Positions 3,530 through 37,469 of a stretch of DNA of 64,000 nt are shown one piece after another. Every line of letters begins with the position of its first letter. The first letter of the stretch is position 1. Source of the DNA: Candidatus Bathyarchaeota archaeon (GTDB lineage: Archaea > Thermoproteota > Bathyarchaeia > Bathyarchaeales > Bathycorpusculaceae). The notes below the pieces were generated by a model that was not told the DNA's origin, searched no databases, and was given only the letters and a program-made list of their open reading frames with translations. The position numbers and the translations under genes were made by a program. The stretch covers positions 62,001 through 126,000 of the forward strand of contig JAOZIE010000012.1 in assembly GCA_026014485.1 (NCBI GenBank), given 5' to 3'.

Positions 3530-3623
3530 AGTTAGCCACGAAACAGCGAACTCTGCTTTAATATAAGAAACGTTTTACTTTAAACACTTGTGATTGTCAA
3601 CAACCAACAACAAGGTAGAAAAC

Positions 3624-4130
3624 ATGTCGCTTAAGGATTTGAACACAAAAATAGCGCAGTGCAGAAAATGCAAGCTCTGGAAAGACACAAACAACGCTGT
3701 TCCCGGAGAAGGCCCCGCAAACGCCAAGTTAATGCTGGTGGGACAAAACCCCGGCGCAGAAGAAGACAAAACAGGCAAACCCTTTGTTGGTCGAGCAGGC
3801 AAATTCCTCAATAAGGTGCTGTCTGAAAACGGCATCGACCGAAACGAAGTTTTCGTATCCAACATTGTTAAGCATGTGACGCCTCAGAACAGACCCCCGT
3901 TTCCTGATGAGGTAGAGGCTTGTGTACCGTATTTGGCGGCACAAATGGAGTTAGTGAAGCCTCGGATTGTGGTTTTGATGGGGAAGGTAGCGTGGCAAGC
4001 GCCCAGATTGGAAGGCATCGAGTACATTGAAACGGTTCATCCGTCGGCTGCGATGCGCTTCACGAAAATGAGAAACAGGTTCATGGAGGATTTTGCGGCT
4101 CTGAAGAAACGGCTGAACGTATCCAGTTGA
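3624..4130 (+). CDS. udg: family-4-like Fe-S uracil-DNA glycosylase with a Cys-to-His change
   Basis: This 168-aa protein carries CRKC near the N-terminus, motif 1 VGQNPGAEEDKTGKPF, an EACVPYL Cys and motif 2 HPSAAMR. These are hallmarks of thermophile [4Fe-4S] uracil-DNA glycosylases, which remove uracil from deaminated DNA in base excision repair. In family 4 the fourth cluster Cys sits in a VKC motif before PQNR; here that motif reads VKH. UdgX-type enzymes also have VKH but add a KRRIH loop that is absent here. The ATG 3624 is preferred because AAGGT lies seven bases upstream; TTG 3594 is an in-frame alternative. Fold and role are well supported, exact subfamily is not. Confidence 0.85.
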   Translation: MSLKDLNTKIAQCRKCKLWKDTNNAVPGEGPANAKLMLVGQNPGAEEDKTGKPFVGRAGKFLNKVLSENGIDRNEVFVSNIVKHVTPQNRPPFPDEVEACVPYLAAQMELVKPRIVVLMGKVAWQAPRLEGIEYIETVHPSAAMRFTKMRNRFMEDFAALKKRLNVSS

Positions 4131-4201
4131 GCCTCAAGTGAACGTGGTCTGCAGGCGCATCCATCTTTTCTGAACTTAATCGCCGTGTCTGACTTACGGT
4201 T

Positions 4202-4219
4202 TAGAACGTTTGTTCTAAG
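4202..4219 (+). promoter_or_regulatory. palindromic operator TTAGAAC-N4-GTTCTAA
   Basis: A perfect inverted repeat with 7-bp arms lies just upstream of the TATA box of the winged-helix gene at 4259. The same core (TTAGAR-N6-YTCTAA) occurs at 36867-36884 with the same distance to its TATA box. It is probably bound by the winged-helix regulator itself or a relative. Confidence 0.6.
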
Positions 4220-4227
4220 AATTGGAC

Positions 4228-4235
4228 TTATATCT
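4228..4235 (+). promoter_or_regulatory. TATA box of a leaderless gene
   Basis: CTTATATC is centred about 27 bases before the GTG start at 4259, so transcription should begin at or within a base or two of the start codon. No ribosome site precedes that GTG, which fits a leaderless message. Confidence 0.55.
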
Positions 4236-4258: not shown

Positions 4259-4729
4259 GTGGAGTCGTCACGATTGAACTCTCAACAAGAAAATGAACTT
4301 GAATACTCCTTACGGGGCAAAGCTTGGAAAGTTTACTGGTTCCTGCTCAAAAGCGGCACGCCCCAGAGCGTCCGCGAGGTCCAGCGTGGACTCCACTTCA
4401 GCAGCCCAAGCGTGGCAAATCACCATCTGGAGCAGCTGCGCGATTTGGGTTTGGTTGAAAAGCAGGAGTTAGGCGGGCATTACTTCTTGGTTAACGAAGT
4501 AAAAATCGGTGTGCTGCGGCATTACGTTAAGTTGGGCAAACTGCTATTTCCAAGATACTTCTTCTACGCTGTCTTCTCCACCACATTTTACGTCGCGTTC
4601 TTAACGGTTCTCATGCAGGGATTAAACTGGCTTGCCCGCGAAAACTTGTTCATCATAACTTTCGGCGCAGTTGTTTGTGTGGTATTCTGGTATGAAGCCT
4701 ACCGCATGTGGTCGCTGCGTCCGTACTAA
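4259..4729 (+). CDS. membrane-tethered winged-helix transcription regulator
   Basis: The 156-aa protein has an N-terminal winged helix-turn-helix (about residues 20-80; VREVQRGLHFSSPSVANHHL is the recognition region) and two C-terminal transmembrane segments (about 97-118 and 126-145). It would sit in the cytoplasmic membrane with its DNA-binding part inside. Archaeal regulators of this design are known but few are characterised. The gene is probably leaderless and lies behind a palindromic operator. The secreted beta-propeller gene follows after 71 bases in the same direction, suggesting co-expression and possibly a sensor-effector pair. Confidence 0.75.
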   Translation: MESSRLNSQQENELEYSLRGKAWKVYWFLLKSGTPQSVREVQRGLHFSSPSVANHHLEQLRDLGLVEKQELGGHYFLVNEVKIGVLRHYVKLGKLLFPRYFFYAVFSTTFYVAFLTVLMQGLNWLARENLFIITFGAVVCVVFWYEAYRMWSLRPY

Positions 4730-4800: not shown

Positions 4801-6966
4801 ATGGTTCAGAAAGAAGTCATGAAAAAAACCCGAAACTACGGCTTAATCGGTGTTCTCCTTGCAGTTCTGCTTGTAGCAACCATTTACAGTTACGGCGTAA
4901 CACCCGGGATTTCCCCTAACATTCCGCCTTTTGCAGCCCATGAGGTTTCGCCGATGAAAACTTTTGAATCCTACGACGAACTCAAAAGTTTTCTTTCCGC
5001 AAGCGAAACTAACAATGGCAACAGTTACTGGATGACGGTACCTGGAGGAGGCGTAGGGGAGTTCACACTATCGCTCGACACCCGGAATAGTGTTCCAACT
5101 GTAGCTCCAGCCCCCGCCGCTGCTGAACAAGGTGCAAAAGATTTCTCTACCACTAACATTCAAGTTGCAGGTGTTGACGAAGCTGACACAGTCAAAACCG
5201 ACGGCGAGTACCTCTACATGGTAGGCAACAACAGCCAAGCCATCTACATCTTGGATGCGAATCCTCAGAATGCTAGGGTGCTTGCCAAGATATCCTTCAG
5301 CGACGCGTATCTTTCAGGGATTTACCTGAGCGAAGACGGCAGCAAACTTGCGGTGTTCGGGAACCAGTACGTGCGGTACTTTGTGGACAACAAAGTTTCC
5401 GATGAGTACTCCTCGGAATTAGCGTTGCCTTACTGGAACAGCGGAACAACCTTCGTGTACGTTTACGATGTTTCCAGCAAAGCCAGCCCCACGTTAGCCC
5501 GAAACTTCACCATGAGCGGCAACTACGTTAACTCACGCATGATAGGCGACTACCTGTACGGCATCGTAACCGAAACCGCCTACGTGGTAAACGACACGGT
5601 GATTTTGCCCGCGGTTTTCGCTGGACCTCAAGTGGCTAACGTTTCACCCAAAGACATCTACTACGCAAGCGCATCAGACACCTACTACAGCTACACCACA
5701 GTCGTAAGCTTGAACATCATGGACGCCACACAGCAACCGACAAACATGACCATAATGATGGGCGGCACAGGCAACATCTACGTCTCAGCCAGCAACATCT
5801 ACATAACTTACCCCGATATTGAATACGAAACCATAACGCCGACCACATCCCCCACAGCTACCCCTACACTGGATAAGGATAACTCATCTCAAACAATCAT
5901 TGCCCGACCAGAATATCCCATAATGCATCCAATTTGGCAAGGGACAATCATCTACCGCGTCAGCGTTTCAGGTGCCTCCTTAACGTTTGCGGCACAAGGC
6001 AACGTCACAGGTAACGTGCATAATCAATACGCCATGGACGAAAGCAACGGCTACTTCCGCATAGTCACCACCTCCTACGAGTACGAATCAGAAACATCTT
6101 GGAGCGGCATACGCCAGAACAACGTCTACGTCTTAAACATGGACCTTGACGTGGTGGGTAAACTGGAAAACTTGGGCACAGGCGAAAACTTCCACTCCTC
6201 CAGATTCATCGGAAACCGCCTGTACATGGTAACTTACCTAAATACTGACCCGCTTTTTGTCATAGATTTAAGTCAACCCACTAACCCCACGCTTCTTGGC
6301 GAACTGATTATTCCAGGCTACAGCGACTACCTGCACCCCTACGACGAAACACATCTGATAGGCTTGGGCAAGGATGCTGTGGTTGAAGAAGGCATAGACT
6401 TTGCGTGGTACCAAGGACTTAAACTGTCGCTCTTCGATGTCAGCAACGTTAATGCACCCACAGAAATGGCGAAAATCATCATAGGTGACCGCGGCACAAG
6501 CAGCGACGCCCTCTATGACCCCAAAGCGTTCCTGTTTGACCCCTCAAGGAACATGCTGGTGCTTCCGGTGAATCTGTACTTGATAGTGGAGCCGACCTAT
6601 GAACCAGATAGACCGACACCGAAAAATGACGACGCCGTCGATACTATGCCGATAAAGCCTATAATCGGTTCAGGCTCCTCGTCGAGCCAGTACGGCACGT
6701 TTGTTTGGCAGGGCGCCTACATCTTTGAGGTCAGCTTAGACGGCGGTTTTGTGGTGAAAGGCAACGTGACCCAGCTTGACGACGCAGCGGCTTTGATGAA
6801 TGACCCAACGCTGCCCATAAGAAGCGATTACCCGTGGACAGACTACAACCACTACCTTACGCGCTCGCTATACATCGACGATGTGCTCTACACATTCAGC
6901 CAGAGCAGAGTGCAGCTCAACAGCCTCGATGACTTTTCGGTCTTAGCTATAGTAGAACTGGATTAA
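4801..6966 (+). CDS. secreted beta-propeller domain protein
   Basis: The 721-aa product has an N-terminal signal anchor (about residues 12-32) and a long extracellular part carrying the archaeal/bacterial beta-propeller domain (NIQVAGVDEADTVKTDGEYL near residue 118 is its diagnostic start). The family is distantly related to WD-40 propellers and is anchored at the cell surface; its ligands are unknown. Ser/Thr/Pro-rich segments near residues 342-365 and 600-640 interrupt the propeller. The start has AGGTGA seven bases upstream. It follows a membrane-tethered regulator and is followed by a strong T-rich terminator. Confidence 0.8.
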   Translation: MVQKEVMKKTRNYGLIGVLLAVLLVATIYSYGVTPGISPNIPPFAAHEVSPMKTFESYDELKSFLSASETNNGNSYWMTVPGGGVGEFTLSLDTRNSVPTVAPAPAAAEQGAKDFSTTNIQVAGVDEADTVKTDGEYLYMVGNNSQAIYILDANPQNARVLAKISFSDAYLSGIYLSEDGSKLAVFGNQYVRYFVDNKVSDEYSSELALPYWNSGTTFVYVYDVSSKASPTLARNFTMSGNYVNSRMIGDYLYGIVTETAYVVNDTVILPAVFAGPQVANVSPKDIYYASASDTYYSYTTVVSLNIMDATQQPTNMTIMMGGTGNIYVSASNIYITYPDIEYETITPTTSPTATPTLDKDNSSQTIIARPEYPIMHPIWQGTIIYRVSVSGASLTFAAQGNVTGNVHNQYAMDESNGYFRIVTTSYEYESETSWSGIRQNNVYVLNMDLDVVGKLENLGTGENFHSSRFIGNRLYMVTYLNTDPLFVIDLSQPTNPTLLGELIIPGYSDYLHPYDETHLIGLGKDAVVEEGIDFAWYQGLKLSLFDVSNVNAPTEMAKIIIGDRGTSSDALYDPKAFLFDPSRNMLVLPVNLYLIVEPTYEPDRPTPKNDDAVDTMPIKPIIGSGSSSSQYGTFVWQGAYIFEVSLDGGFVVKGNVTQLDDAAALMNDPTLPIRSDYPWTDYNHYLTRSLYIDDVLYTFSQSRVQLNSLDDFSVLAIVELD

Positions 6967-34346: not shown

Positions 34347-36086
34347 ATGATAATATCGACGAATGTGGCAAAAAACAACACTAAAATCTACCTCACCACA
34401 GGATTAATCATCATAATCTTGGTCGCTGGAATAGTAACATGGCAACTCTACCCCAGCAGCCAGAGCCCCAGTGCTTCCCCAACCCCATCGCCCTCCGCCA
34501 ACCCAACAGCCCCACCCACAACACCCCCCGAATTCGACTTAACCATAATAGGCGCCAACGGAACCACCATAGTCCTAAACAAAAATGAGCTACTTGCCCT
34601 CTCAGCATATACTGCCAGCGGAGGTTACATAAGCCAAAATATCATCCACGGATACGGCAACTACACAGGCATCCCCGTCTACACTCTCTGCGAAATAGTA
34701 GGAGGCGTAGAAAGCGACGACACCGTTGAAGTCACCGCTTCTGACGGATACACCATGACCTACACCCGTGGACAAGTAAACGGACAAGGCTTCGCATGCT
34801 ATAACCCAACAACTGGAAGCGAGGCTCCATCCACAGACACCATGGTGCTTATGGTGGCCTACTACCAAGACGGCGCACCGTTATCTTCAGACCAAGGTCC
34901 ACTAAGAATAGTAATTGTTGGACCAGAAGGACTCGCCACTCCAGGCAATCAATGGGTCAAATACGCAACAAAGATAACCGTAATCGCCTCAACATCTCCA
35001 ACAGCCAGCCCAACTCCAACAACCAACCCAACAGCCAGCCCAACTCCAACAACCAACCCAACAGCCAGCCCAACTCCAACAACCAACCCAACAGCGTCAC
35101 CATCAACTGCCTCCACGCCCACTGTCTCGCCTTCACCCACTGCCACTCCAACGCCAACATCCACACCAAAACCCACCGCCACACCCGCCCCAACAGCCAC
35201 GCCCACACCTGAACCCAAATGGTACTTAGGATTCAGCGGCGGAAACACAGCCAACATGAGCAGTTTAACCTTTGAAGCCCAAGCCAGCCAAAACGCAGTA
35301 ACATACGCTGACTCTAGCAGCACATGGTCCGGCATACCGCTGTATCAACTGGTAGACTGGTACATCAACGCAGGAAACATCAATAGCGGCGCTTTAACGG
35401 TGGGCTACAATGTAACCGTAATAGCTGGTGACGGATACACTTGCGAATTAAATGGCACCCGCGTAAATGCAAACAACAACATCATCGTAGCCAACGTAGC
35501 AAACGGCACCGCCCTTACTGGCTCAAACTACCCCTTAACGCTGACGGGCTCGGACTTAACCAAAAAGGAAACGGTCAAGAACATAGTACAAATCCGAGTT
35601 GACGTTGCACTGCCAGACCTGACCTTAACCGTAGTCGGCTCCAACGGCACAACCCTTGTCTTCAACTCTACAAGCATCACAACGTTACCGTCAGTCAGCG
35701 CAATGGGAGGCTACAACGCGCATGGCACAATCACAGGCGTCGGCAACTACACAGGCATATCCGTTTTGTCACTGTGCAACATGGTCGGCGGTATCAACAA
35801 CAACAGCTTCATACAAGTAACCGCCTCCGACACATACACCAAATCGTTCACCTACGAACAGCTCACAGCAGGCACCGGATTCGCCGTCTATGACCCCGAA
35901 ACAAACAACTCCACCACCGCAACCCAGCCGTTAACAGTCATCATCGCCTACGCCGTCAACGGCACCCCATTACAGCCGCCACACGGACCCTTGAAAGTAG
36001 CCATCGTTGGACCAGAAGGACTACTCACCATCAGCAGCCTATGGGTCAAAGACATCATACAAATCAACGTCTACCAACTCGCATAA
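34347..36086 (+). CDS. large surface protein with three repeat domains and a Pro/Thr stalk
   Basis: The 579-aa protein has an N-terminal signal anchor (about residues 13-33), a first domain (about 60-215), a Pro/Thr/Ser/Ala stalk (about 216-290), a second domain (290-415) and a third (420-579). Domains one and three share NGTTxV, GNYTGIxV, ASDxYT and GPLxxxIVGPEGL...WVK, a pattern close to the substrate-binding part of sulfite-oxidase-type molybdopterin proteins but with no visible cofactor Cys. Many N-x-S/T sites suggest heavy glycosylation. It may be an adhesin-like or S-layer-associated protein. The start at 34347 has no strong ribosome site. Confidence 0.75.
35001..35090 (+). repeat. three perfect 30-bp tandem repeats in the stalk
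   Basis: Three identical 30-base units (unit begins ACAGCCAGCCCAACTCC) encode tandem [10 protein letters not shown] decapeptides. The identity at DNA level points to recent slippage, so stalk length probably varies between strains. Confidence 0.9.
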
Positions 36087-36761: not shown

Positions 36762-36866
36762 CTCCCGCTTTCAAATATGCATGCTCTGAAATAAGCAAAT
36801 CTTGGAAACCTGCTTTTTCGCTTTGCACACACACCAACTGGCGATTTTTACTTATGACTCTATGTC

Positions 36867-36884
36867 TTAGAGTTCAAGCTCTAA
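36867..36884 (+). promoter_or_regulatory. palindromic operator TTAGAG-N6-CTCTAA
   Basis: Perfect 6-bp arms with a 6-base spacer lie between the divergent regulator gene (36761, minus) and the small membrane protein gene (36934, plus). The last base is 16 bases before the end of CTATATC (36894-36900), the same spacing as at 4202-4235. Confidence 0.6.
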
Positions 36885-36893
36885 ATGGTAGGG

Positions 36894-36900
36894 CTATATC
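36894..36900 (+). promoter_or_regulatory. TATA box of the 36934 gene
   Basis: CTATATC lies about 37 bases before the ATG at 36934, predicting a start near 36921 and a short leader that contains a GTGA ribosome site. Confidence 0.5.
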
Positions 36901-36933: not shown

Positions 36934-37179
36934 ATGGCAGCACAAATAGAAGCAATATTCGAGTACACTGCAGAACACCCTGCTGTGTTGATGATTATAG
37001 GCGGGATGTTTTTTGCGATTGTCTCAATTTTTACAGCACCTATAAACGGAGAAACAACCTCTTTCCTCAGAAACCTAACATACTTGCTAATCGTAGGCGG
37101 CGTTCTACTTCACATACTAAGCGGGGGACTGAGATTTCTGGTGCGGGTGTTCAAAAGAATCTTCAACATACAGGATTAA
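36934..37179 (+). CDS. small two-segment membrane protein
   Basis: The 81-aa protein has two hydrophobic helices (about residues 17-36 and 47-70) joined by a polar loop and ends with a basic tail (RVFKRIFNIQD). No family is recognised. Its promoter carries the shared palindrome, so it may be a target of the divergent membrane-tethered regulator. Confidence 0.6.
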   Translation: MAAQIEAIFEYTAEHPAVLMIIGGMFFAIVSIFTAPINGETTSFLRNLTYLLIVGGVLLHILSGGLRFLVRVFKRIFNIQD

Positions 37180-37241: not shown

Positions 37242-37469
37242 TTGAAGAAGCTGCGTCTGCTCAAAATTTTCACTTTTCTGTTTTTCACACTTTTCGTGAT
37301 TCTGATTGCGTGGGAGACGCAGGTTCAGAACACTTTGGTCTCAGTGTCAGCTTTGATGACGTTTACCGCTGCAGCATGTTTATTGCTATGCTATGCCGTG
37401 TTGGGGGAAACAAACAAGCCTCAAACCAACTTCACTCGAAACTATCCAATCATCAAAAATGAATTGTGA
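37242..37469 (+). CDS. small two-segment membrane protein
   Basis: The 75-aa protein begins MKKLRLLKIFTFLFFTLFVILIAW from TTG 37242 and has a second membrane segment at about residues 33-53. It follows the other small membrane gene after 62 bases and overlaps the convergent DUF371 gene by 17 bases. Function unknown. Confidence 0.5.
   Translation: MKKLRLLKIFTFLFFTLFVILIAWETQVQNTLVSVSALMTFTAAACLLLCYAVLGETNKPQTNFTRNYPIIKNEL

Follow-up and report, generated by a model that had tools for sequence, protein, structure and literature searches.

Two loci in a 64,000-nucleotide stretch of DNA from a Candidatus Bathyarchaeota archaeon (contig JAOZIE010000012.1, positions 62,001 to 126,000; hereafter the window) each combine a short inverted repeat, a TATA box directly behind it, and an adjoining gene for a small winged-helix protein with two C-terminal membrane helices. 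Our analysis of these loci was wholly computational, and the genomes used for comparison are mostly metagenome-assembled. The features on which the following discussion rests are these, in window coordinates:

4201–4207, forward strand: putative accessory left half-site TTAGAAC, the left arm of palindrome 1, marked by GAAC enrichment in orthologous promoters
4212–4227, forward strand: putative core operator GTTCTAAGAATTGGAC of the regulator/beta-propeller promoter, with conserved TGTTCTAAnAATTGGAC abutting TATA
4228–4234, forward strand: TATA box TTATATC, near-invariant as TTATA(A/T) and at a fixed distance from the operator
4274–4729, forward strand: putative regulator P0001, ArsR-like winged helix followed by two C-terminal membrane helices (AlphaFold2, Foldseek and hydropathy; 55 loci)
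4801–6966, forward strand: exported beta-propeller protein (PF09826, Pfam E = 1.4e-146), the conserved partner of P0001
36285–36761, reverse strand: putative regulator P0002, a 158-aa winged-helix protein with two C-terminal membrane helices (AlphaFold2 and hydropathy)
36851–36857, reverse strand: TATA-like box TCATAAG in the promoter of P0002, directly adjoining site A; CTCTAAGGGTTAGAG-TCATAAGC is conserved in orthologues on the minus strand
36858–36872, no strand assigned: putative operator site A, the 15-bp dyad CTCTAT-GTC-TTAGAG; consensus CTCTAA-N3-TTAGAG in orthologues and extra target promoters
36879–36893, forward strand: putative operator site B, the imperfect 15-bp dyad CTCTAA-ATG-GTAGGG, abutting TATA; conserved as CTCTAAATGKTAGGG-CTATA
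36894–36900, forward strand: TATA box CTATATC, belonging to the divergent gene; every target promoter has CTATA except one with CTATT
36934–37179, forward strand: divergent target gene P0003, an 81-aa two-helix membrane protein with relatives behind the same operator
37242–37469, forward strand: two-helix membrane protein of 75 aa, encoded second in the divergent unit and recognised by a profile match

Both loci contain a palindrome of the form TTAGAR-N6-YTCTAA. Palindrome 1, TTAGAA-N6-TTCTAA (TTAGAACGTTTGTTCTAA), occupies 4201–4218, one base to the left of the 4202–4219 given in a preliminary description of this DNA, and palindrome 2, TTAGAG-N6-CTCTAA (TTAGAGTTCAAGCTCTAA), lies at 36867–36884, exactly as described there. 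Consistent with that description, the last base of each TATA box (TTATATC and CTATATC, respectively) lies 16 bases beyond the end of its palindrome, and AlphaFold2 models and hydropathy profiles agree in predicting, for both neighbouring proteins, a winged-helix domain followed by two membrane helices at the C-terminus. Both regulator genes do adjoin their palindromes, but the second regulator is encoded on the minus strand, and the CTATATC box belongs to the divergent gene at 36934. The window's two TTAGAR-N6-YTCTAA sites compare with a mean of 0.0025 in 400 dinucleotide shuffles, and sites with a TATA box at this distance, of which the window has two, occurred in none of those shuffles. Across the whole genome (2.37 Mb) the pattern is found four times and its reversed control never, a result that spares the operators the objection that such a palindrome might be common and not enriched in promoters. 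The remaining two genomic sites overlap the 3' ends of open reading frames, meaning that only the two window sites are promoter-located.

What is conserved at 4.2 kb is TGTTCTAAnAATTGGAC-TTATAAG, a unit kept across Bathyarchaeia ahead of the regulator/beta-propeller gene pair. Relatives of P0001 were fetched from 55 loci in Bathyarchaeia-type genomes, and the block TGTTCTAAnAATTGGACTTATAAG is recognisable without gaps in 54 of the 55 aligned promoters, the window included. In a promoter logo built from 49 non-redundant orthologues, conservation begins abruptly at the T before GTTC, and the alignment columns below the left arm TTAGAA hold merely 0.06–0.11 bit. In the stretch 4–6 bp before GTTC, GAAC is the most enriched 4-mer, occurring in 11 of the 54 orthologous promoters against 0.44 expected (p = 1.6e-12). 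One supported 22-member clade, to which the window belongs, accounts for all 11 of these promoters, suggesting that the left arm is an accessory half-site specific to this clade, outside the operator common to all. The spacing of this half-site is variable, and the P0001 core is itself an imperfect dyad only. The strict pattern GTTCYAANNNNTGGNNNTATA has 58 matches in 91 family genomes (reversed control, 0), and besides P0001 it marks a second target, an exported-protein gene, in five of the seven genomes of the window's genus, with a product of 144–152 aa in four of them and a shorter 84-aa frame in the fifth. The window genome's own copy of this second site (C9:186702) reads TTTAGAACGTTTGTTCCAA, repeating the palindrome almost letter for letter. 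The same promoter (L193, G000 C9:186660–186708) also contains one more dyad, TTCCAA-N3-TTAGAA, 22 bp (about two turns of the helix) farther upstream, which is partly kept in genome G062.

P0001 most likely starts at TTG 4274 rather than at GTG 4259, because nearly all orthologue alignments begin there. Its AlphaFold2 model, of moderate confidence (pLDDT 74.6), returned Foldseek matches to ArsR/SmtB and LexA DNA-binding domains. In 49 of the 54 orthologous loci, the PF09826 beta-propeller gene comes immediately after the regulator. A uracil-DNA glycosylase gene (3594–4130) borders the P0001 promoter on its upstream side, an arrangement kept in one of the 54 loci, that of the closest relative.

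At 36.9 kb, comparison of the P0002 upstream regions (16 orthologues plus one truncated copy) reveals the conserved element TTATGA-CTCTAACCCTTAGAG-N6-CTCTAAATGTTAGGG-CTATATC, in which two 15-bp inverted repeats are spaced by 21 bp. Site B lies directly against the divergent gene's TATA box, and site A against the TATA-like TCATAAG on the other strand, before P0002; palindrome 2 consists of the right half of site A and the left half of site B and marks the junction of the two tandem dyads. P0002 target promoters carry two to three such dyads at distances of at least 21 bp (two turns). Counted from the copy nearest to TATA, the upstream copies are at −21, −22, −32, −42, −53, and −54, each near a multiple of 10.5 bp. 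The distal dyad is more perfect than the proximal one and, at unidirectional targets, lies away from the BRE. Among genomes the divergent gene varies while the operator stays with the regulator.

P0002 is present in 17 of 257 class genomes and in three genera only. Its winged helix is modelled by AlphaFold2 at a pLDDT of about 90 and shows only weak matches to MarR-type and other winged-helix folds; PF14947 (HTH_45, the ArnR1-like winged helix) matches 7 of 14 orthologues weakly (best E = 0.019) and the window protein not at all. We searched the 91 family genomes with a tandem-operator model based on sequence only, for which sites next to P0002 supplied part of the input, and at E ≤ 1e-3 the operator was found in all 16 P0002-bearing family genomes and in 1 of the 75 others (Fisher p = 6.5e-17, a value that overstates independence given that the genomes are related, from a count that leaves out G046 with its weak P0002 match). 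The sole match without P0002 lies inside a coding frame, and the window genome has one occurrence (model E = 4.1e-15). In P0002-bearing genomes, tandem sites unlinked to the regulator precede genes for small two-helix proteins (57–116-aa frames), and further unlinked targets are a DUF996-like and a DedA-like protein, both named by eye. Of the proteins of the divergent unit, P0003 has an orthologue in L063 (E = 3e-33) and a relative in L160 (E = 3e-8), each encoded behind the tandem operator, and the 37242–37469 frame belongs to the small-protein family of the unlinked targets, matching the profile of small proteins behind other genomes' tandem operators at E = 3e-15, the best of 816 window frames. 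The P0002 copy of G026 is shortened and matches residues 29–156 only. G062 has a strong tandem operator elsewhere, and its P0002 copies (C1:2107038–2107403) all contain internal stop codons, possibly reflecting regulator loss in progress. Also within the window, 34347–36086 encodes a 579-aa exported protein with two PF00174 (molybdopterin-binding oxidoreductase) stretches separated by a long T/P/S-rich linker.

These comparisons indicate two separate regulator–operator pairs with similar geometry, rather than one shared operator. The operator interpretation put forward in the preliminary description holds in that both sites are conserved, adjoin membrane-tethered winged-helix regulators, and lie just upstream of TATA, and fails in proposing that the two share a single palindromic operator. 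At neither locus is TTAGAR-N6-YTCTAA the unit: at 36.9 kb it is a dyad junction, and at 4.2 kb it joins half of the core block to a half-site found in 11 of 54 orthologues. What the two promoters do have in common is a YTCTAA half-site whose first base lies 15 bp ahead of the TATA 7-mer, and this half-site, along with the similar topology of the two proteins, is what could be expected if both regulators used one operator class through common descent or cross-binding. We nevertheless find such a class quite improbable: hhalign gives the two families a probability of 1.5, at which a relation beyond the general fold is not demonstrable; the two operators differ in phylogenetic distribution, with the P0001 operator found in many genomes without P0002; the tandem model does not recover P0001 promoters; and in the 91 family genomes neither operator's search finds the other regulator's promoter. 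The idea that the palindromes are functionless products of chance gains something from the left arm at 4201 being missing from most orthologues, but is hardly credible in the face of the shuffle test, the deep conservation of both blocks, and their recurrence at other promoters, and for the cores 4212–4234 and 36858–36900 it is already refuted. A single shared operator of the form YTCYAA-N3-TTRGAR was also considered and rejected, as it has two strict matches genome-wide, one beside a gene end and one before the second P0001 target. A PDB sequence search gave no useful match.

The reading we favor, with a probability of about 0.65, is that the window contains two autoregulatory circuits of membrane-tethered one-component regulators, most likely activators that work by TFB/TBP recruitment. 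From the operator anatomy, phasing, conservation, regulon membership, and co-occurrence described above, we infer the binding protein, its dimerisation, the sign of regulation, and the signal as follows. P0002 dimers would bind two or more 15-bp CTCTAA-N3-TTAGAG repeats on one face of the helix at whole-turn spacing, with the last repeat abutting TATA and placed over the BRE; at its home locus P0002 would control its own gene and the divergent small membrane-protein genes, and in related genomes also a few unlinked membrane-protein genes. P0001 would bind TGTTCTAAnAATTGGAC where it abuts TATA, before its own operon with the exported beta-propeller protein, and in the window's genus also before the second exported-protein gene. 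Both regulators may help TFB/TBP onto a poor-BRE promoter, like ArnR and EarA-type activators, and the trigger for both would presumably be a membrane or envelope signal.

As to sign, activation is the more likely, favored about two to one over repression because the dyads lie upstream of TATA, the BRE is poor, and both the activator literature and the activating role of ArnR point the same way. All dyads are upstream of TATA, with none seen downstream, and the suggestion made in the preliminary description that sites just upstream of TATA suit activation is borne out. The BRE positions, TTGGAC and TAGGGC, are GG-rich and do not have the A-rich stretch of other window promoters (baseline, 20 window promoters), and the archaeal activators covered in PMC5512572 typically bind upstream of the BRE and often go with deviant BREs. 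If the two proteins were instead autorepressors, the TATA-abutting dyad would cover the BRE and block TFB, the upstream dyads would add cooperativity, and a membrane signal would bring release. Such a scheme is possible, though we think it the less probable one: the proximal site does overlap the BRE and touch TATA in every promoter, and repressors predominate among the bacterial proteins of related fold (ArsR, MarR, LexA), yet the more perfect distal P0002 dyad is away from the BRE at unidirectional targets, no dyad is seen downstream of TATA, the BRE looks poor, and the closest known topology, that of ArnR, activates. It is unlikely that the TATA-adjacent blocks are read by some other factor, for instance a paralogue of TFB or a soluble regulator encoded elsewhere, and that the membrane proteins are merely regulon genes. 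The blocks do abut TATA, where TFB binds, and the case for binding by the regulators rests on comparative genomics; against this, the operators are gene-specific rather than general and track the presence of the adjacent regulator, a tight linkage that an unlinked factor leaves unexplained.

The closest known analogues of the two membrane-tethered regulators are ArnR and ArnR1 of Sulfolobus acidocaldarius, membrane-bound one-component activators that bind two 15-bp inverted repeats only if both are present, the ArnR box (TCGAC-N5-GTCGA) lying within −43 to −84, upstream of the BRE (PMC6396743). P0001 and P0002 share with ArnR, according to AlphaFold2 and hydropathy, an N-terminal HTH followed by two C-terminal transmembrane helices, as well as targets among genes for surface or membrane structures, and P0002 also shares the paired 15-bp inverted repeats upstream of the core promoter, where P0001 has one imperfect dyad and an accessory half-site. 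Unlike ArnR, which has HAMP and sensor domains, both proteins (151–158 aa) run from the winged helix straight into the membrane helices, and neither has a Pfam match to HAMP. Their sites also differ, CTCTAA-N3-TTAGAG for P0002 and GTTCTAA-N4-TGGAC for P0001 against TCGAC-N5-GTCGA, as does placement, with ArnR sites upstream of the BRE and the last P0002 dyad abutting TATA, and so do the targets, which here are small membrane proteins and a beta-propeller operon. The missing room for HAMP and sensor domains and the different box rule out identity with ArnR, and in their working P0001 and P0002 could be described as ArnR in miniature. EarA, TFB-RF1, and the ara-box factor (PMC5512572), together with GvpE (PMC8241225), are archaeal activators that rescue a weak BRE from sites at or just upstream of it; as covered in these sources, their operators are unrelated to those described here, and they are not presented as membrane-tethered winged-helix proteins.

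P0001 also resembles LexA to some extent. It passes the gathering score of the LexA DNA-binding domain in Pfam (PF01726, 27.5 vs 23.7 bits), and all 39 of 39 P0001 orthologues match this domain at E ≤ 0.1. The window site at 4.2 kb reads GAAC-N4-GTTC, which we take to be similar to the Gram-positive LexA box; however, the GAAC arm is missing in most P0001 orthologues. P0001 was rejected as a LexA on two grounds, a score of 21.8 bits against the NCBIfam lexA equivalog cut-off of 110.95 and a missing autoprotease domain, the C-terminus being formed by the two membrane helices; P0002, which has no protease domain either, is likewise not a LexA.

More tentatively, and with less than even confidence, we suggest that P0002 might be the master switch of an undescribed archaeal envelope-stress regulon and that the P0001 family might form a class paired with extracellular partners. 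If so, P0002 would be a minimal membrane-inserted sensor-regulator for which helically phased tandem dyads abutting TATA serve to switch on a set of tiny two-helix membrane proteins. Among the papers searched, no Bathyarchaeia regulator, operator, or regulon turned out to have been characterised. Comparative genomics alone here yields two concrete candidate regulator–operator pairs, together with their targets and the precise DNA sequences involved, all open to in vitro tests that do not require the organism to be grown. The two pairs also bring the membrane-bound one-component theme of Sulfolobus ArnR to a further class of archaea, in a reduced version that has no sensor domain of its own. 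The palindrome at 36.9 kb, which proved to span the gap between two likely true sites, also illustrates that inspection of a single genome can find real operators and yet misjudge the unit.

The window genome has eight members of the P0001 family, namely P0001 and seven more winged-helix/two-helix proteins. If this more tentative reading is correct, this eight-member family, mostly located beside exported-protein genes, would represent a whole class of membrane-tethered regulators. The seven paralogues (G000, L219–L224; contigs C2, C4, C9, and C12) mostly have neighbouring genes whose products are exported or membrane-anchored, often within the same operon, and the paralogue promoters in this genome show no clear TATA-abutting TTCTAA dyad like that at P0001. 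Between one of the paralogues (C4:29040) and a gene for a 448-aa exported protein, however, the minus strand carries TTCTAA-ACG-TTAG with a TATA-like TAATAA (L086, G000 C4:28908–28928), a single case of an element that resembles the operators described here.
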